From Chlorobaculum sp. (lineage in GTDB: Bacteria; Bacteroidota; Chlorobiia; Chlorobiales; Chlorobiaceae), in the NCBI GenBank assembly GCA_013334855.1, contig JAAXWU010000004.1:1-43952 (forward strand): a stretch of 43,952 nt of DNA, written 5' to 3'. The notes below the pieces were generated by a model. The model ran no database searches. It saw nothing but the letters and a program-made list of their open reading frames with translations, and was not told where the DNA came from. Position 1 is the stretch's first letter, and each line of letters begins with the position of its first letter. Below are positions 5,597 to 15,307 of the stretch, piece by piece. The position numbers and the translations under genes were made by a program.

Positions 5597-5706
5597 TCGG
5601 GAAAAGCCTCTGAGCGACCACCCTCTTTTGAAAGCTCAGAACACCGGAAAAAATTTTGTACATTGCGCAACCGAAGATTTACAACAAGACTTAAAGCGAA
5701 AGACTA

Positions 5707-7191
5707 GTGCCAAAACGTCAGGACATCAAGTCCATTCTGGTGATTGGAGCCGGGCCGATCGTGATCGGGCAGGCGTGTGAATTCGATTATTCGGGCACCC
5801 AGGCGTGCCGCGCTCTGAAGGAGGACGGCTACCGGGTTATCCTGGTCAACAGCAACCCGGCCACGATCATGACCGATATAGAGCTGGCCGACGCCACCTA
5901 TATCGAACCGATCACTCCATATTACGTCACCAAGATCATAGAGAAGGAGAAACCGGACGCGCTGCTTCCGACGATGGGCGGCCAGACCGCGCTGAACACG
6001 GCGGTCAAGCTCGCCGAGACGGGCGTGCTCGAACGCCACGGCGTCGAGCTGATCGGCGCGAAGTTCCGTGCCATCCGCAAGGCCGAGAACCGCGAGTTCT
6101 TCAGCGATGCGATGAAAAAGCTCGGCCTCGAAATGGCCAAGGGCTTTTTCGTGCGCAACGAAAAGGAGGCGCGGGAAGCGCTCGACGAAATCGGTCTGCC
6201 GATCGTCATCCGCCCCTCGTTCACGCTTGGCGGCACGGGCGGCGGTTTTGCCGAGACCAAGGCGGACTACTACGACGTGGTGCGGCGCGGTCTCGCTGAA
6301 AGCCCGATTGGCGAGGTGCTGGTCGAGGAGAGCCTGATCGGCTGGAAGGAGTACGAACTCGAAGTGATTCGCGACCTGGCCGACAACGTCATCATCGTCT
6401 GCTCCATCGAGAACGTCGATCCGATGGGCGTGCATACCGGCGACAGCATCACGGTTGCCCCCGCGCAGACGCTCACCGACCGGCAATATCAGGAGCTGCG
6501 TGACGCCTCGATCAGGATCATCCGCGAAATCGGCGTCGAGACCGGCGGCAGCAACATCCAGTTCGCCATCAATCCGAAAGACGGGCGTATTGTCGTCATC
6601 GAGATGAATCCTCGCGTGTCGCGTAGCTCCGCGCTCGCCTCGAAGGCGACCGGATTCCCCATCGCGAAAGTAGCCGCAAAGCTCGCCGTGGGGTACACGC
6701 TCGACGAGATCACCAACGACATCACCAAGAGCACTCCGGCCAGCTTCGAGCCTTCCATCGACTACTGCGTGGTCAAGGTGCCGCGCTGGGACTTCGAGAA
6801 GTTCAAGAATGTCGATGCCCGTCTCGGCGTGCAGATGAAGTCGGTCGGCGAGGTGATGGCCTTCGGGCGCAACTTCCGCGAGGCGCTGCAGAAGTCGTTG
6901 CGCGGGCTGGAGATCGGACGTGCGGGCCTCGGCTGCGACGGCAAGGACATCATGAATGTCATCGACATGACCCAGCAGCAGCGCAAGTTCGCCAAGGAGG
7001 ATCTGCTCGAAAAGATCAAAATCCCAAAGGCCGACCGGATGTTCTACCTGCGTTACGCCTTCCAGGCGGGCGCGACCGTCGAAGAGGTGCACCAGTCAAC
7101 CGGCATCGATCCGTGGTTCCTCGATAACATCCGCCAGATTGTGGCCTTCGAGGATGAGCTTCGTCAGATGGCAGCCGCAAGCGAGGCATGA
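5707..7191 (+). CDS. carB: Carbamoyl-phosphate synthase large subunit, N-terminal half (split gene)
   Basis: A 494-residue protein corresponding to roughly the first half of the usual ~1070-residue CarB. It holds the first ATP-grasp module, which makes carboxyphosphate from bicarbonate and [24 protein letters not shown] at the N-terminus, [47 protein letters not shown] and [18 protein letters not shown]. It then enters the oligomerisation domain and stops after [20 protein letters not shown]. The carbamate-phosphorylating half is absent, and trpC begins in the 4-bp ATGA overlap at its end. The start is GTG at 5707. Split CarB is known in some lineages such as Aquifex and Methanocaldococcus; the second half must be elsewhere (inference). 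Confidence 0.93.
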
Positions 7192-7958
7192 CCTATCTGA
7201 CCCGGATTCTCGAAACCAAGTCGGGAGAGGTTGCCGAACTGAAAAAGCTGGAGCCGGAGCGTCGCTATCGCGAGATGCGCGGCGAAGTTCCGGCTACGAG
7301 AGATTTCCGCTCGGCCATCGCGAGCCGTGACGGCGGCATCAACCTGATTGCCGAGGTCAAGAAGGCGTCGCCATCACGCGGGGTGCTGGTCGAGGATTTT
7401 CGCCCGCTCGACATCGCCGCACGCTACGCCGAACTCGGCGCGTCGGCTTTTTCCGTGCTGACCGACCGCCACTACTTTCAGGGTTCGCCCGACTACCTGA
7501 AGGCGATCACGCAGAAATTTTCCATTCCCGTGCTCCGCAAGGAGTTCATCATCGACGAGAGCCAGATTTACGAAACCCGCCTCATGGGTGCCGACGCGGC
7601 GCTCCTCATCGTGGCGGCGCTCGAACCGTCGCAACTGCGGGACTATCTCCAGCTCTTCGCCGAACTTGGTCTGCACGCGCTCGTCGAGGTGCACGACCGC
7701 CGCGAACTCGAGGTTGCCATCGAGCAAGGCTCCACGATTGTCGGGGTCAACAACCGCGACCTGCGCGACTTCACCGTCGATCTCATGACCTCGGTCAACC
7801 TCAAACGCGACTATCCGGCAGGCGTAATCGCCGTCGCCGAAAGCGGCCTGAAACGCCTCGACGATGTGCTGCTCATGCAACAAGCCGGCTTCGACGCCGC
7901 GCTCATCGGCGAAGGCCTGCTCACCAGCGAAGAACTGAGGCGGTTTACCTGGGGGTAA
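7188..7958 (+). CDS. trpC: Indole-3-glycerol phosphate synthase
   Basis: A 256-residue TIM-barrel enzyme of tryptophan biosynthesis converting CdRP to indole-3-glycerol phosphate. Family motifs are clear: [13 protein letters not shown] (phosphate and substrate lysine), [29 protein letters not shown] (catalytic Lys/Glu region), [11 protein letters not shown] and [10 protein letters not shown]. The ATG overlaps the stop codon of the carB half by 4 bp (ATGA), so translation is probably coupled. Other trp genes are not in the window, so this trpC sits in a mixed pyrimidine/arginine-tryptophan transcript. Confidence 0.97.
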
Positions 7959-8086: not shown

Positions 8087-8749
8087 TTACTCCAACCCTT
8101 TCAGCTTCCTCGCGGCCTTCGCCGGATCGGCGGCTTTGAAGAATGCCGTGCCCGCGATGAGCGCGTCGGCTCCGGCTTCAGCCAGCATGGCGCAATTCTC
8201 CTCGGTCACGCCGCCATCGACGGCGATCACCAGCTCCGGATTCAGCTCCTTGCGCATGGTGTCGAGCTGCTCGATCTTTTTGACCGCGCCGGGGATGAAC
8301 TTCTGACCGCCGAAGCCGGGGTTGACCGACATCAGGAGCACCAGATCGAGATCGGCGAGCACCGGTTCGAGCAGCGCGACCGGCGTGGCGGGGTTGATCG
8401 AGACGCCCGCTTTGACGCCGAGGCTCTTGATAAACTGGATCGTGCGATGCAGGTGCGGGCAGGCTTCGAGGTGCACCGTCACCTGGTCGGAACCGGCCTT
8501 GACGAAATCCTCGATGTAACGGTCGGGATCGGTGATCATCAGGTGGGTGTCGATCACCATCGAGGTGCATTTCTTGATCGCCTGCACGATGAAGGGACCG
8601 AAGGTGATGTTGGGCACGAAAACGCCATCCATCACATCGCAGTGCATCCAGTCCGCGCCAGCGTTTTCAGCCAGCTCGACCGAAGCTTTCAGGTTCGTGA
8701 AATCCGCCGACAAAATGGAGGGAGCCAGAAGCGTAGTTTTTCCGGGCAT
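8087..8749 (-). CDS. rpe: Ribulose-phosphate 3-epimerase
   Basis: A 220-residue TIM-barrel epimerase interconverting ribulose-5-phosphate and xylulose-5-phosphate, used in the pentose phosphate pathway. Diagnostic motifs are APSILSADF (residues 9-17), WMHCDVMDGVFVPN (metal-binding His and catalytic Asp), DTHLMI, LLMSVNPGFGGQKF and VIAVDGGVTEEN (second catalytic Asp). The ATG at 8749 gives the canonical N-terminus. The frame stays open to 8890, but that would add 47 unrelated residues overlapping the upstream gene. It lies 41 bp downstream of the BamA/TamA-type gene on the same strand. Confidence 0.97.
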   Translation of the reverse strand: MPGKTTLLAPSILSADFTNLKASVELAENAGADWMHCDVMDGVFVPNITFGPFIVQAIKKCTSMVIDTHLMITDPDRYIEDFVKAGSDQVTVHLEACPHLHRTIQFIKSLGVKAGVSINPATPVALLEPVLADLDLVLLMSVNPGFGGQKFIPGAVKKIEQLDTMRKELNPELVIAVDGGVTEENCAMLAEAGADALIAGTAFFKAADPAKAARKLKGLE

Positions 8750-8790
8750 AAAACAGTCTGGTTTATGGGGTGAACGATAATGAAGTACGA

Positions 8791-10989
8791 TTAAAATGCT
8801 TCTCCGATTCCGAAATTGAACGTAAAATTTTTCAGGTTCATGTTTGAAAACTGCCAGGGGTGCGCATTGGCGGGATCGTGCAATTTCCATGCGAAGTCGA
8901 ACCGGAACGGGCCGATGGGTGATCCGAGACGCAGTCCGGCTCCCGCGTCCCAGGCGAAATCACGGCTCAGCGACTTGAACGAGAAGGCATAGGGGCCGCT
9001 TCTGTCCCAGATGTTGCCCGCGTCAGTGAAGAGGGTGATCCCCGATTTCTGCCCGAACAGTTTGAAGAGCTGCATCCGGTATTCGAGGCCGAGTTCGGCC
9101 TTGATGTCCGCGCCGAAGTTTGACGTGGCCGTGCTGGTGCAGTTTGCGGGGCCGAGCGTGCCGAAAATCCAGCCGCGCATACTGTTCGAGCCGCCCGCAT
9201 AGAAGCGGTGATCTTCCGGCGTTGATTGCGCCTTGCCGTAGGGACTCATCCAGCCGAGAGCGATTTTTGCCGCCACCTGCCGGTCAGGCGAAAGCTCTTT
9301 CGTTACGGCAAGCTGCGTATCGAGTTTGACGTACTGGTTGTAGGGCGTGCCGAAAATCTGGGCATCCGAGTTGGTGAATCCGACGTATGATTTTTTATCG
9401 ACGTAATTGTCGATCAGCCACAACAGACTGCCCGACTCCTCGGCCATGGCAGAGATGTTCCAGAAGGTCGTTCTTCTGCGCCGCGAGGTATTATCCCTGT
9501 TCGAATAGTTATATCGGAGCCTGAATGTCTGGTTCAGGCGAGTCTGAAGCAGGCTGTCGAGGCCGTGACTTACAGCAGCCTGATTTGCAGGATCGATGCC
9601 GATGTTTCGAGCGAGTTCGTTTTTGAAGAGCTGCTGGAAGCCGCGAAGCGAATCCTTGCGGGCCACTTCGAGTTCGAAGAAATCGAAGTCGAGTTTCGAG
9701 TTTCTCGCTGGCCGGGTGCTGTAGCTGCCCCTGAAGATTTCCCTCCGGCTGTCGAGCAGCACCGGCTGTTTCGATTGCGCGAATTCGACGGTTCCGGTAT
9801 AAAACGACCCCTGTTTGCCGAGCTTCGGGATGACCAGATCGGCCTTGACACTGAATTCGTAAGGGATGATCTTGTCGTACTGGTCAGGAGTCAGGCTCGA
9901 AAGTACGTTGGTGTTCGACGAAGTCTGCGTGCCGTAATTTCCGGAAAGCCTGAACTGCTGACCCGCGCCGAAGAGATTCCGGTTCTCGTAAGCGAGCGCT
10001 CCGCCGACGAAGAGAGAGCCGTAGCGGTTGTCAACCAGCAGCTTCGGTTCGATCTGGTGCTTGGGACTTGGATCGAGATCGATGGTCATCGGAATGGCTC
10101 CGGCGCGAACCGAATCCTTGTTCATCGAGATGGATGAAAAAAGATTCGTAGAACCGAAATTTTCGAGTGTTCGCTGTTCGAGCGACTGCCGGGTCAGGTC
10201 ACCCTGCTTCCAGGCGATGGCTGACGAAAATACTTTAGGCGAGAATTTCTGATGGCCGTAAATCGTGACCGAGACGTTCTCTCGTGTAAACAGTTTCGCA
10301 GTCGCAGGGTCATCTTTTTTCAGTGGATCGTGAACGATCACCTTCACCGGGCCATAGGCATACTGCTTTGGCAGGCTGACGTTGACGCGCACTCCGGCGT
10401 GAAGTCCAAGGGTATCGACTGTGATTCTGATGCTGTCGGGGTGAAGAAAGGTGTAACCTTGTTCCCGGAAAAAATCGAGCGTGCGATCCCGCTCGTCGAT
10501 CAGGTTTTCAACAGCGAAGATCTGCTTGGGCTTCAGGCGGCTTCGTCTGAAGTAGCGGGTGCGGAGATTTTCAGGGATGGAGTCCAGACCAGCGTAGCTG
10601 AGCGAATCGACAAGGGTCGGCTGGTTCTCTTTGATCCGTATCGACAGGCGTACGTTGCCATTGCCGTTACGGACGATGGTGGTATCGACGCTGGCGAAAA
10701 AGTAGCCCTTGAAGGTATAGAGCTTCTTGATGAGGTTGATGTCTTTCTCGAAATCCTCGGCGATGAAGGGGCGAACCGCGCCCGCGAAGAGTCCGGTGCC
10801 GAGAAAGGAGTCGCGCATGGAGGTTGAGATGATGCCGCGAATCTCTTCGGTCGAAAGGGCCTTGTTGCCGGTTATTCTGATGCTTTTGACCTGCGGGAGC
10901 GCCGTCGCGTTGCCGTTCATGGGGGGCGAACTCTCTTCAGCCCACAGCACTCCCGGCATGGAGAGCATGAGGAGGAGGCAGCATAGCAT
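8791..10989 (-). CDS. BamA/TamA-type outer-membrane assembly protein (POTRA domains plus Omp85 barrel)
   Basis: From the ATG at 10989 this is a 732-residue protein with a hydrophobic signal segment (LCCLLLMLSMPGVLWA, cleavage before EESS). POTRA-like repeats follow, starting VKSIRITGNKALSTEEI at about residues 35-51. The second half is a C-terminal 16-strand-type barrel containing RFYAGGSNSMRGW, the conserved Omp85 lid-loop motif, and a Phe-terminal beta-signal (FNFGIGEAF). It should insert or export proteins at the outer membrane. Without a search I cannot separate BamA from TamA/TamL; the short POTRA region favours a TamA-like member. The start is uncertain: a better Shine-Dalgarno and ATG exist at 11036, but a T10 tract puts that ATG one base out of frame (see findings). 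It sits downstream of a DUF2795 gene. Confidence 0.88.
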   Translation of the reverse strand: MLCCLLLMLSMPGVLWAEESSPPMNGNATALPQVKSIRITGNKALSTEEIRGIISTSMRDSFLGTGLFAGAVRPFIAEDFEKDINLIKKLYTFKGYFFASVDTTIVRNGNGNVRLSIRIKENQPTLVDSLSYAGLDSIPENLRTRYFRRSRLKPKQIFAVENLIDERDRTLDFFREQGYTFLHPDSIRITVDTLGLHAGVRVNVSLPKQYAYGPVKVIVHDPLKKDDPATAKLFTRENVSVTIYGHQKFSPKVFSSAIAWKQGDLTRQSLEQRTLENFGSTNLFSSISMNKDSVRAGAIPMTIDLDPSPKHQIEPKLLVDNRYGSLFVGGALAYENRNLFGAGQQFRLSGNYGTQTSSNTNVLSSLTPDQYDKIIPYEFSVKADLVIPKLGKQGSFYTGTVEFAQSKQPVLLDSRREIFRGSYSTRPARNSKLDFDFFELEVARKDSLRGFQQLFKNELARNIGIDPANQAAVSHGLDSLLQTRLNQTFRLRYNYSNRDNTSRRRRTTFWNISAMAEESGSLLWLIDNYVDKKSYVGFTNSDAQIFGTPYNQYVKLDTQLAVTKELSPDRQVAAKIALGWMSPYGKAQSTPEDHRFYAGGSNSMRGWIFGTLGPANCTSTATSNFGADIKAELGLEYRMQLFKLFGQKSGITLFTDAGNIWDRSGPYAFSFKSLSRDFAWDAGAGLRLGSPIGPFRFDFAWKLHDPANAHPWQFSNMNLKNFTFNFGIGEAF

Positions 10990-11020
10990 TCCCGCCCGGA
11001 GACGGCGGGGGATTGTTCCT

Positions 11021-11030
11021 AAAAAAAAAA
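11021..11030 (-). promoter_or_regulatory. T10 homopolymer tract at the 5' end of the Omp85 gene
   Basis: On the coding strand an ATG at 11036-11034, preceded by AGGGAG with 8-base spacing, is followed by CTA and exactly ten T residues. As written, that frame stops at TAG after five codons. One extra T would join it in frame to the Omp85 gene, adding a basic n-region (RRLRAG) before the hydrophobic signal segment. This is a candidate slippage or phase-variation site, or a sequencing/assembly error. Confidence 0.55.
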
Positions 11031-11049
11031 TAGCATTCTCCGCTCTCCC

Positions 11050-11277
11050 TCAGTTTAGCGGTTCTTCGTCGCTGTACCCGAAATCTTCGTCGGTGGGATA
11101 ATCCGGCCAGACCTCTTCGAGTGTTTCGTACAGCTCGTCGCTTTCGGGCAGAGCTTCGAGGTTTTCGATAACCTGCTGCGGCGCACCCGTTCTGTTTGCG
11201 TAATCGATCAGTTCATCCTTGGTGACAGGCCAGGGGGCATCGGCAATATATCGGGCAAGATCGAGATTCCAGTACAT
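11050..11277 (-). CDS. DUF2795-family small protein
   Basis: A 75-residue acidic protein beginning MYWNLDLARYIADAPWPVTKDELIDYANRTG. That opening matches the DUF2795 pattern, in which a short helical domain recognises the ALxxAxxPxTKxELIxYA consensus. The C-terminus is very rich in Asp/Glu (ESDELYETLEEVWPDYPTDED). No molecular function is established for the family. It ends 14 bp upstream of the ATG at 11036 of the Omp85 gene, so the two are likely one transcript. The start ATG at 11277 is the only sensible one. Confidence 0.75.
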   Translation of the reverse strand: MYWNLDLARYIADAPWPVTKDELIDYANRTGAPQQVIENLEALPESDELYETLEEVWPDYPTDEDFGYSDEEPLN

Positions 11278-11603
11278 ACTGACGGTAAATGGTTGATTCT
11301 GTGATGGTTAAAGGATTTTCCGCTGTCCGGTTCCTATCGATGCGTGCTCCTTCGTGCGTTTACTTCTCGTGACGTATTTTCGGTATGGTCAGGAGGTATC
11401 GCCAACGGGGAGAACGCAGACTGAACATCGCGACATAGACGCTTCCGTTCAGTAAAAGACCGTATCGATGCTGCATAAACCTGATGATTAGCAAGACTGC
11501 AACTCGTTGCTGCACAGGAGGTTGAATGCGTGATTCCCAAATAACAGCGTGGTTCCGTTAAAACTCACGAAATATAAAAAAAGATTTTTTGAATAATCAA
11601 AAG
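11278..11603. other. Intergenic spacer upstream of the DUF2795 gene and downstream of polA
   Basis: Apart from short open frames with no recognisable features, I see no gene. It contains a small hairpin, GCAACTCGTTGC (about 11498-11509), and an AT-rich stretch beside the polA stop codon. A promoter for the DUF2795-Omp85-rpe run is expected here, but no clear consensus was identified. Confidence 0.5.
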
Positions 11604-14468
11604 CTAATGGGCCTCCAGCCAGTTTTTTCCGACGCCGGTCTCGACCTCTACCGGGACGTTTTTCACCCCGCATTTCGCGGCGGCTTCGATCATGCAGCGC
11701 TCGACCATCTCCCTGAGCCGCGCCTCTTCGGCTGGCGGCGTCTCGAAGAGCAGCTCGTCGTGCACCTGCAACAGCATCGCCGAACGGAATGCCCCGGTTT
11801 TCAGCTCGCGGCTGACGGAGCACATGGCGTATTTGATGATGTCCGCCGCCGTACCCTGGATTGGCGTATTCATCGCGACGCGCTCGGCGGCCTTGCGCAC
11901 GTTGGCGTTCGGGCTGCCGAGGTCGGGCAGGTAGCGGCGGCGGCCCATCAGCGTCGTGACGTAACCGCGTTTCCGCGCCTCCTCGATGGTCGTCTGGAGC
12001 GAGGAGAACATGCCGGGGTACTTCGCCATGTAGGTGTCGATGATCTCTCGCGCCTCTTTCTGCGTGATGCCGAGGCGCTGCGACAGGCCGAAGGGCTGGA
12101 TGCCGTAGAGCACGCCGAAGTTGACCTCCTTGGCCTTGCGCCGCATGTCGGGCGTCACCTCCGCCGTGTCGAAGATGACCCGCGCCGTGGCCGCGTGGAT
12201 GTCCTCGCGGTTGCGGAATGCCTCGATGAGCATCGGGTCGCCCGACAGCTCGGCGGCGATGCGCAGCTCGATCTGCGAGTAGTCCGCCGAGAGCAGGAGA
12301 CTGTCGGGACTGGACGGAATGAAGGCGCGGCGAATCTCCTTGCCAAGCTCCGTGCGGATCGGGATGTTCTGCAGGTTCGGGTTCGACGACGAGAGCCGCC
12401 CGGTGGCCGTGACGGTCTGGTTGAACGAGGTGTGAACGCGGCCCGTCAGCGGATTGATCATCTTCGGCAGCGCCTCGATGTAGGTGCCCTTCAGCTTCTG
12501 CAGGCTGCGGTATTCGAGCAGGTCGGAGGCTATCGGGTGCAGCATGGCCAGCTCTTCGAGCACCTGCACGTCGGTCGAGTAGCCGGTTTTGGTGCTCTTT
12601 TTTGGCGGCAGCTTCAGCACCTCGAAGAGGATGTGCCCAAGCTGCTTCGGGGAGTCGATGTTGAAGGTTTCACCGGCTGAATCGAAAATCTTGCCAGTCA
12701 GCGTTTCAAGATCGCGCTTGACCGTCAGAGAACACTGTTCGAGGTGCGCCGTGTCTATCGAAACGCCTTGATGCTCCATTCCGGCCAGTACGCTGACCAG
12801 CGGGAATTCGAGCTGGCGGCACACGTCGAGCAGCTCTGGCGTCTGGTCGAGCTGCTCCTGAAGCGTCAGGCGCAGCTTGAGGGCGATGTCGGCGTCCTGG
12901 CAGGCGTAGTCCGAGAGCTTCTGCGGCTCCACCTCGAAGATGCCGATGGCTGACTTGCCCGTGCCGACCAGTTCCGAGTATTTGGTGGTTTTGCGTCCGA
13001 GATGCGACGCCGCGAGGTCGTCGAGATTATGCCGCGTTTCGGGATCGAGCACGTAGCTGGCGAGCATGGTGTCGAACTCGACCGGCGCAAGCTCCACGCC
13101 ATACTTCTTCAGCACGAGTATGTCGTACTTCAGGTTCTGCCCCGTCTTGGGCAGCGCCGGATGTTCAAGCAGCGGCTTGAGCCGGGCGACCGACTTGCGG
13201 GCGTCCAATCCCGGTTTGCCGAAGTAGACGAAGAACGCCTCGCCGGGTTTGACGGAGAATGAGATGCCCGCCAGCTCCGCCGCGAAGGTATCGAGGCTCG
13301 TGGTTTCGGTATCGACCGCGAACCCGGCGGAGCCTTCGAGCAGCGTCAAGAGCGCCTCGAACGCCTCCTCGCTGTCAACGAGGTGGTACTCCGAGCCTTC
13401 GCCCGCCGGGATGAGCGGCGGAGCGTCCGCACTTGCCGTCGCCTGTGCGCTCGCGGCGGAAGCGGCGGACGAGGCGGCGGGTGCGTCGATGCGCAGCACG
13501 GCGGGTACGCGGGCGGCGATGCTCTTCAGCTCCAGCCGCGCCAGGTGCGCGAAGAGCGCCTCGGGATCGGGCTTGCTTGCGTGCAGCGCTTCGAGGGTGA
13601 GCGGCAGGTCGAGGTCGGTGCGGATCGTCACCAGCTCTCGCACGAGCGGCATCATCTCTCGGAACGCTTCGAGGCTCTGGCGCGTCTTTGGCGTCAGTGC
13701 GTCGAGATTGGCGTAGATGCCTTCGAGCGAGCCGTACTTTTCGAGCAGGCTGGAGGCGGTTTTCGGGCCGATTCCCTTCGCGCCGGGGATGTTGTCCGAG
13801 GTGTCGCCGGTGAGCGTCAACAGATCGATGAACTGCTCCGGCGGCGCGCCGAACTGCGCCTTTACCTCGGCGCTGCCGACCAGCTCGAACTCGTTCTGCT
13901 TCTTGCCGGGCTTGAGGATGCTCACGCCATCGTGCACGAGCTGCGACATATCCTTGTCGGGCGTGACGATGAAGACCCGGCAGCTCTCCTCGAACTTCCG
14001 CGCCGCCGTGCCGATGAGGTCGTCCGCCTCGAAGCCGGGCATGATCACCAGCGGAATGCCGAGCGCCCGGATCAGCTCGCGGATGTCGCCGAGCTGGCTG
14101 ATAAGGTCATCCGGCGGGGCGGGGCGGTTGGCCTTGTACGCCTCGTACTTTTCGTGCCGGAAGGTCTTCTCCGGGCTGTCGAAGGTCACGGCGAGATACT
14201 CCGGGCGGTACTCCTCGATGATTCTGAAGAGGCTGGAGACGAAGCCGAACACCGCGCCGGTCGGTACGCCATCGCGAGTGCTCATCCGCGCCTGTTGCAG
14301 CGCGTAGAAGGCGCGGTAGACCATCGCCATGCCGTCGAGCAGGAAGAGTCCCGGCTTCTGTCCAGCGGGTTTCTCTGTCTCAACTGTCTTCTCAGGAATC
14401 GCCTCCCGCTTTGGCGACGCTTCGGGTTGCGGAGCGTCGAACAGGCCGATCTGGTTGTCGCTGCTCAT
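11604..14468 (-). CDS. polA: DNA polymerase I
   Basis: A 954-residue three-domain Pol I. The 5' nuclease domain (about 38-320) has FLLDGMAMVYRAFYA, MPGFEADDLIGT and GDTSDNIPGAKGIGPKTA. The 3'-5' exonuclease domain (about 370-560) retains Asp386/Glu388 in VDTETT, NLKYD (446-450) and YACQDAD (521-527), so proofreading looks intact. The polymerase domain has motif A DYSQIELR (Asp729), motif B RRKAKEVNFGVLYG and motif C QVHDELLFE (His903-Glu905). The ATG at 14468 overlaps the pheA stop by 4 bp (ATGA), implying translational coupling; the longer open frame to 14807 is overlap with pheA. Unusually, about 38 residues precede the nuclease domain and include QIGLF at 6-10, resembling a beta-clamp-binding motif. 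Confidence 0.97.
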   Translation of the reverse strand: MSSDNQIGLFDAPQPEASPKREAIPEKTVETEKPAGQKPGLFLLDGMAMVYRAFYALQQARMSTRDGVPTGAVFGFVSSLFRIIEEYRPEYLAVTFDSPEKTFRHEKYEAYKANRPAPPDDLISQLGDIRELIRALGIPLVIMPGFEADDLIGTAARKFEESCRVFIVTPDKDMSQLVHDGVSILKPGKKQNEFELVGSAEVKAQFGAPPEQFIDLLTLTGDTSDNIPGAKGIGPKTASSLLEKYGSLEGIYANLDALTPKTRQSLEAFREMMPLVRELVTIRTDLDLPLTLEALHASKPDPEALFAHLARLELKSIAARVPAVLRIDAPAASSAASAASAQATASADAPPLIPAGEGSEYHLVDSEEAFEALLTLLEGSAGFAVDTETTSLDTFAAELAGISFSVKPGEAFFVYFGKPGLDARKSVARLKPLLEHPALPKTGQNLKYDILVLKKYGVELAPVEFDTMLASYVLDPETRHNLDDLAASHLGRKTTKYSELVGTGKSAIGIFEVEPQKLSDYACQDADIALKLRLTLQEQLDQTPELLDVCRQLEFPLVSVLAGMEHQGVSIDTAHLEQCSLTVKRDLETLTGKIFDSAGETFNIDSPKQLGHILFEVLKLPPKKSTKTGYSTDVQVLEELAMLHPIASDLLEYRSLQKLKGTYIEALPKMINPLTGRVHTSFNQTVTATGRLSSSNPNLQNIPIRTELGKEIRRAFIPSSPDSLLLSADYSQIELRIAAELSGDPMLIEAFRNREDIHAATARVIFDTAEVTPDMRRKAKEVNFGVLYGIQPFGLSQRLGITQKEAREIIDTYMAKYPGMFSSLQTTIEEARKRGYVTTLMGRRRYLPDLGSPNANVRKAAERVAMNTPIQGTAADIIKYAMCSVSRELKTGAFRSAMLLQVHDELLFETPPAEEARLREMVERCMIEAAAKCGVKNVPVEVETGVGKNWLEAH

Positions 14469-15307
14469 GGATTCACCACTCCGTAGCTGCCGAGCACCTT
14501 GACCATCGTCGCGAACTCGCGGAGATTTTCGAGCGCGTTGTGGACGTTCTGATCCTCTCTGTGGCCGATGAAGTCGGCGTAGAAGAGATATTCGAACGCC
14601 TTTTTGCGCGACGGGCGCGACTCGATCTTGGTCAGGTCGATCCCCCTGAGCGCGATGGTGGCCAGCGCCCGGAAGAGCGACGCCTGTTCGTTGGGCAGCG
14701 AGAAGACGATCGAGGTCTTCTGCCGGGTCGTGTCGGGCCGGACTTTGAGGTGCGACAGGTCGGGATTGTTTTCGCGTGCGATGCAGAAGAAGCGGGTGAT
14801 ATTCCACTCCTCGTCGGCGAGATTTTCGCGAAGAATGTCGAGGCCGTACAGCTCACCCGCCCGCTTCGAGGCGATGGCAAGCGCCGTCCGGTCGCCGTTT
14901 TCCGAGATCATTTTGGCGCTTCCCGCCGTGTCGTAGGCCGCTTCGGCCTTGATGTGCGGATGGGTCGCGATGAAGTTGTGGCACTGCGCCAGCGCCTGCG
15001 GGTGGGAGAGCACTCGCGTGGCCTCTTCGACCGACGCGCCCGGAAGGCCGAGCAGGCAGTGCTCCACCTTGACGAAGGTCTCGGCGAGGATCACGACCGG
15101 GCGGCGGAGCAGCAGGTCGTAGTTCTGGTGGATGCTTCCGCCAAGCGAGTTCTCGATGGGAATCACCGCGTAGTCGGCTTTCTGATCCGTTACAGCAGTA
15201 AATACGTCATCGAAGCTTTCGCAAGGCAGCGGCTCTCCGAATCTCAGCGCGGCAATTTCACTGTATGCGCCGGGTTCCCCCTGATAAGCGATCAACCAGT
15301 TTGTCAT
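14465..15307 (-). CDS. pheA: Prephenate dehydratase
   Basis: A 280-residue monofunctional enzyme (no chorismate mutase domain) that converts prephenate to phenylpyruvate in phenylalanine synthesis. The catalytic domain begins WLIAYQGEPGAYSE and contains VIPIENSLGGSI and the catalytic Thr in NITRFF (Thr171). The C-terminal ACT regulatory domain (about 197-280) carries FRALATIALRGIDL (GALA-like) and IESRPSR, residues that bind phenylalanine in characterised homologues. Feedback inhibition by phenylalanine is therefore expected. The gene is divergent from yebC and coupled to polA through an ATGA overlap. Confidence 0.96.
   Translation of the reverse strand: MTNWLIAYQGEPGAYSEIAALRFGEPLPCESFDDVFTAVTDQKADYAVIPIENSLGGSIHQNYDLLLRRPVVILAETFVKVEHCLLGLPGASVEEATRVLSHPQALAQCHNFIATHPHIKAEAAYDTAGSAKMISENGDRTALAIASKRAGELYGLDILRENLADEEWNITRFFCIARENNPDLSHLKVRPDTTRQKTSIVFSLPNEQASLFRALATIALRGIDLTKIESRPSRKKAFEYLFYADFIGHREDQNVHNALENLREFATMVKVLGSYGVVNP

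Follow-up and report, generated by a model that had tools for sequence, protein, structure and literature searches.

Probable transcriptional slippage at a conserved T tract in the start of an Omp85-superfamily gene of the Chlorobiaceae

Transcriptional slippage at homopolymers is described for spa13 and mxiE of Shigella, for genes of insect endosymbionts and for dnaX of Thermus thermophilus, and homopolymers near the start of envelope genes underlie phase variation, for example in Neisseria. The locus compared with these systems here is the start of an Omp85-superfamily gene in a 43,952-nt stretch of Chlorobaculum sp. DNA (GenBank assembly GCA_013334855.1, contig JAAXWU010000004.1, positions 1 to 43,952; the whole stretch is referred to as the window). 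A preliminary description of this sequence had noted a T10 homopolymer behind the best start codon of the gene, which puts that codon one base out of frame. On comparison with relatives, this TamA/TamL-like Omp85 gene probably relies on obligatory transcriptional slippage at its start, a process that we infer from the sequences.

The resemblance to each described system is partial. Slippage in Shigella spa13 and mxiE joins two frames, as is proposed here, and is reported to account for 25-30% of the spa13 product (PMC5009743). In spa13, however, the slip lies 58 codons into the gene and is limited to one pathogen group, whereas the Omp85 tract is start-proximal and present in two genera of the family. 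According to the same source, genes of insect endosymbionts are out of frame at a homopolymer, as here, with 12-50% of transcripts corrected; those genes have long poly-A runs in reduced genomes of more than 70% A+T, whereas in the present genomes T10 is rare and TTT is a minority Phe codon. Phase-variable envelope genes likewise carry a homopolymer near the gene start, but only one of the 47 species compared here has a tract of in-frame length. The dnaX A-tract, at which slippage is known in T. thermophilus and argued for others (PMC3711429), shares with the Omp85 tract a kept homopolymer of 9-10 A or T residues and a frame transition, in the same genomes. An A9 or A10 run was present in dnaX of six of the seven genomes examined (G024, G027, G002, G015, G019 and G001; L185-L190); in the seventh, G000, the script found no open reading frame (ORF). 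The frame after the dnaX tract continued for about 690-700 nt in two of the six and ended 20-26 nt past the first A in four. Antonov et al. 2013 (PMC3711429) argue for transcriptional realignment in poly-A dnaX genes, with shorter runs that include those of Chloroherpeton thalassium and two Chlorobium species. The dnaX gene differs in that it slips well within the gene and yields two products, whereas the Omp85 tract in most species occupies codons 2-4. Production of the Omp85 protein would depend entirely on the slip, and the unslipped mRNA has no apparent useful product. Chlorobium is not mentioned in the searched text of PMC1088944, and no report of a tract in the Omp85 gene was found in the accessible literature on slippage, realignment, Chlorobi and phase variation, which did not cover most subscription journals.

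The Omp85 gene was found in 20 of 21 genomes of the window's genus, in 85 of 86 family genomes and in 97 of 98 class genomes, and none of the listed matches contained an internal stop. The family genome without a match (G008) was excluded, and upstream DNA was read for the 85 family copies and for 12 copies from outside the family. A tract of T9-T11 behind an ATG, GTG or TTG was present in 47 of the 85 family copies, spread over two genera, whereas no T- or A-run of at least 8 was present in the 12 homologues from outside the family, over the interval from 150 nt ahead of the open frame to the aligned region. Comparison of tract lengths among orthologues, proposed in the preliminary description, gave T10 in 39 of the 47 genomes and T9 and T11 in four each. 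The start codon adjoined the tract directly in 40 genomes (23 ATG, 16 GTG and one TTG), and in six distant species an ATG was located 13-15 nt ahead of it; the CTA codon between the ATG and T10 was peculiar to the window copy. The type of start codon adjoining the tract changed at least three times on the tree, although start codons were selected by the scan and the counts of codon types therefore indicate variety and are not proof of a start. L008 and L034, from two strains of the same species, were 100% identical over 5190 nt and were uninformative.

In the window, the elements reported earlier on the minus strand (AGGGAG, 8 nt, ATG, CTA, T10 and AGG; Table 1) were present as described. The frame of the ATG reads MLFFF and is closed by TAG after five codons, and one additional T opens it into the Omp85 gene, placing ..FLGTIPRRLRAG ahead of the ORF listed from 10989. 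The same discontinuity was observed in nearly all relatives. The tract was out of frame in 46 of the 47 genomes, among them five single-contig genomes, and the sole in-frame tract was the T11 of G072, a draft genome of 80% completeness. The earlier proviso that close relatives might carry a tract fixed in frame therefore applied to this one genome and not to the other 46. The shift required was +1 T in 34 genomes, +2 T (or -1 T) in 12 and none in one; by length, 30 of the T10 tracts need +1 and nine +2, one T9 needs +1 and three +2, and three T11 tracts need +1 and one needs none. A zero-frame stop codon stood immediately at the end of the tract in 36 of the 47.

The tract is also kept beyond what the protein needs, as in known slippage genes, with a homopolymer of at least about nine A or T residues at the frame junction. 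TTT accounted for 18% of the Phe codons of the Omp85 genes in the 19 genomes of the window's genus and for 42% in the 28 genomes of the other genus. T10 was matched 0-10 times per genome on both strands of the 21 genus genomes, a T11 being counted twice. ATG followed by T9 occurred 38 times in these 21 genomes; 18 of the 38 occurrences were the Omp85 site, as judged by position, and in eight genomes it was the sole occurrence. In G019, which has three T10 matches, the third A/T10 run (L195, approximately position 998) is in frame (KKK) close to the beginning of a gene named ksgA/rsmA-like from its translation.

The sequence between the tract and the hydrophobic core of the signal sequence was compared in the three frames, with the core located by a hydropathy script that may be off in single cases. 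The Omp85 frame was open from tract to core in all 47 genomes, whereas the other two frames were open in 41 and 20. Net charge over this interval was at least +1 in all 47 in the Omp85 frame, with a mean of +2.66, as against means of +0.13 and +0.45 in the other frames. As the Omp85 frame is open and positive throughout, the basic n-region of the signal sequence therefore sits behind the tract and in most species lacks its own start codon. A usable in-frame start was defined as an ATG, GTG or TTG located 3-25 codons ahead of the core with at least one Lys or Arg. Such a start was absent from 33 of the 47 genomes with the tract and present in 37 of the 38 genomes without it. Between tract and core alone, ATG, GTG and TTG were absent in 35 of 47, and in 16 of 47 CTG, ATT, ATC and ATA were also absent. 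An ATG or GTG at the edge of the core in the window, G005 and G020 was left out of these counts. The window ORF as listed, of 732 amino acids, agrees with the earlier observation that it has no basic n-region, as its start lies within the hydrophobic MLCCLLLML and no basic residue precedes it. As in slippage genes, both halves thus appear to be coding across a conserved frame discontinuity, with 46 of 47 genomes out of frame and 33 of 47 without a usable start; the upstream half is a start codon plus a few codons, and its coding nature rests on that start codon and on the cases of tract loss.

On a tree built by a quick method from the mature proteins (85 rows, 701 columns), five changes in tract presence were required. 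These were read as losses, in G012, G045, the G040/G046-G049 clade, G065 and a clade of 30 species, and four of the five lineages have an in-frame start. In G065, GTG is joined straight to GCAAAAG, whereas its sister G080 has 32 nt (T10 plus 22) between the two, which points to a deletion of 32 nt. In the 30-species clade, a TTG stands ahead of GCAAAAGC or a close variant (three members aligned). G045 and the G040/G046-G049 clade have a broken tract together with an in-frame GTG (G049, G046 and G045 aligned).

Transcriptional slippage is the most likely explanation because shifts of both +1 and +2 (or -1) are needed, and polymerase slippage can give longer as well as shorter RNAs, and because the tract is kept as pure T in spite of the minority status of TTT and the rarity of T10. 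Two comparisons support the earlier suggestion that expression or export of the protein may depend on slippage: a usable in-frame start is missing from 33 of 47 genomes with the tract as against 1 of 38 without it, and four of the five lineages that lost the tract have an in-frame start. In the mechanism proposed, ribosomes would load at the codon ahead of the tract, and RNA polymerase would slip on the T-run to produce mRNAs with more or fewer U residues. Only the in-frame share of the mRNA would then encode MFFFL..RR..hydrophobic core, a complete signal sequence, and give an exported barrel protein, whereas in the 36 of 47 species in which a stop directly follows the tract, the unslipped mRNA would yield a peptide of 4-9 residues. 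The frequency of slippage would set and cap the level of the Omp85 protein. An extension of this mechanism is tuned control, in which the gene is permanently out of frame, T10 is held (39 of 47) while the surrounding frame shifts, and stuttering sets the amount of protein, possibly in response to UTP or polymerase speed; we regard this extension as rather doubtful.

Several observations weigh against slippage. An in-frame ATG, GTG or TTG is located between tract and core in 12 of the 47 genomes, including G019 and G017, and in G018, G052 and G072 one is located ahead of the tract, after the last in-frame stop. The window ATG at 10989 lies inside the hydrophobic core. G012 has T7, no preceding start codon and no in-frame start, which the slippage model leaves unexplained; this sequence (L010), which was counted among the tract-less genomes, may contain a sequence error or use an unusual start. 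A sign test on independent pairs was not significant, although with five losses only it had no power. The required shift changed seven times on the tree, one of these changes being into frame, which is not clearly fewer than chance and gives no firm sign that in-frame lengths are actively avoided. Codon periodicity was weak in the 33 nt behind the tract, with 22/24/31 differences as against 278/179/777 in the mature gene; this test used 15 of 16 sister pairs (G036/G071 was dropped because the frames differ), and the mature-gene figure comes from pairs less than 30% different over 600 nt. A 2016 review (PMC5009743) places dnaX of C. phaeobacteroides among the candidates for ribosomal frameshifting, so that dnaX is a tentative slippage parallel for the Omp85 tract.

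RNA folding behind the tract counts on the same side, as it was stronger than in dinucleotide shuffles and would suit programmed ribosomal frameshifting on a U UUU UUU run, in many cases with a stop codon next to it. The mean z score was -1.99 in the other genus, with 15 of 28 below -2, and -0.89 (1 of 8 below -2) and -1.33 (4 of 11) in the window's own genus; an in-gene control gave -0.13 to -0.21, and mononucleotide shuffles gave a mean of -1.82 with 19 of 47 below -2. Over a common stretch the scores were -1.46 with the tract (19 of 47 below -2) and -0.79 without it (9 of 38). The zero-frame stop that immediately follows the tract in 36 of 47 genomes is also consistent with frameshifting, a stop next to the slip site being a feature of prfB-type sites, and the shift needed in 34 genomes could be obtained by one -1 step. 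However, 12 of the 47 need the opposite shift, and this varying direction speaks against ribosomal frameshifting because such a site should work one way. The usual frameshift stimulators lie 5-9 nt from the slip site, whereas in many folds of the other genus (for example L146 and L053) the stem starts about 18 nt from the tract. The 3' arm of the stem also moves between species, and the tract-less G040/G046-G049 clade keeps the stem. Ribosomal frameshifting is considered improbable. Repetition of Ala-Lys and Leu codons may account for the recurrent hairpins behind the tract.

A start behind the tract, at ATG, GTG, TTG or a non-canonical codon, would make the NTG-T10 element a short leader ORF or a regulatory U-tract. 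The 12 genomes with an in-frame start codon between tract and core, and the closure of the zero frame right at the tract in 36, would fit such an arrangement, but 35 of 47 have no ATG, GTG or TTG there and 16 have no near-cognate codon either. Nor does a leader role predict the in-frame starts seen in tract-less lineages, and this explanation is also unlikely.

Phase variation, in which the length of the DNA tract would change and the gene would be ON in part of the population, had been raised in the preliminary description. The homopolymer has a suitable length, and T9, T10 and T11 all occur. The gene would nevertheless be OFF in 46 of 47 species, five of them with single-contig genomes, yet none of the 85 copies has an internal stop; T10 was kept in 39 of 47 and an in-frame length was seen once, so that ON and OFF states are not both common across species. 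Phase variation thus lacks support at this level and is very unlikely. A sequencing or assembly error, formerly thought to explain the window just as well, has a negligible chance of being correct for this contig, although its genome is a draft of 233 contigs and 88% completeness, and is excluded for the family by the out-of-frame tract in 46 of the 47 tract-bearing species.

Transcriptional slippage is thus preferred, and read in this way the Omp85 tract is a start-proximal form of known recoding, kept across two genera of the family. If this is true, ordinary gene finders would miss the true start of the Omp85 gene in many Chlorobiaceae, and a conserved envelope protein would require slippage at the very beginning of its gene, a role distinct from making a second product or rescuing a decaying gene. 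Species that carry the tract, lack it or have it broken would then constitute a natural experiment on keeping a gene out of frame, which is directly testable; C. tepidum is cultivated.

The window ORF matched the Pfam domains POTRA (61.9 bits) and Omp85 (145.7 bits), both above the cut-off. In NCBIfam, the protein scored 301 bits against a curated cut-off of 400 for TamL (NF052279), 118 against 297 for BamA (TIGR03303) and 65 against 625 for TamA (NF047950), so that none of these three cut-offs was reached and the best match was TamL. Matches to sequences in the PDB were mostly to BamA and TamA chains. The protein thus shares POTRA and the Omp85 barrel with TamL, BamA and TamA but scores under every curated cut-off, and we call it a TamA/TamL-like Omp85 protein on the basis of these matches. 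A homologue of TamB (PF04357, above cut-off) was present in all four genomes searched, elsewhere in the genome than the Omp85 gene. Weak second matches in open frames of 806-945 amino acids suggest a separate BamA-like gene.

Table 1. Coordinates of the features at the Omp85 gene start in the window
Feature	Position	Strand	Basis and remarks
Shine-Dalgarno-like AGGGAG	11045..11050	-	Read from sequence; overlaps TGA of the upstream DUF2795 gene
ATG, proposed true Omp85 start codon, out of frame in the DNA	11034..11036	-	8 nt after AGGGAG
Mini-ORF MLFFF and stop, zero frame, from the unslipped mRNA	11019..11036	-	Translation of sequence
T10 homopolymer, proposed slippage site	11021..11030	-	Read from sequence; CTA before, AGG after
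Segment for the basic n-region (..GTIPRRLRAG) of the signal sequence	10990..11020	-	In the Omp85 frame; lacks its own start codon
Omp85-superfamily gene (POTRA and Omp85 barrel)	8791..10989	-	ORF list, Pfam, NCBIfam, PDB sequence matches
DUF2795 gene, directly upstream	11050..11277	-	ORF list, Pfam

The longest match to AGGAGG upstream of the start was 5 nt in five of the 47 tract genomes, 4 nt in 14 and 3 nt in 20, and eight genomes had no match; these counts suggest weakly that AGGGAG acts as a Shine-Dalgarno sequence. The DUF2795 gene is probably co-transcribed with the Omp85 gene, and its end (..DEDFGYSDEE..) was also recognised by eye upstream in relatives. The tract was also considered as an intrinsic terminator of the upstream gene, and this was rejected, as no hairpin signal was detected upstream of the tract (mean z scores of -0.31, -0.05 and +0.17). 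In the wider neighbourhood (5704-7958 and 8087-15307 of the window), carB-like and trpC-like genes converge on rpe, omp85, DUF2795, polA and a pheA-like gene on the opposite strand; rpe, DUF2795 and polA were named by Pfam, and the carB-like, trpC-like and pheA-like genes from reading the ORF translations.

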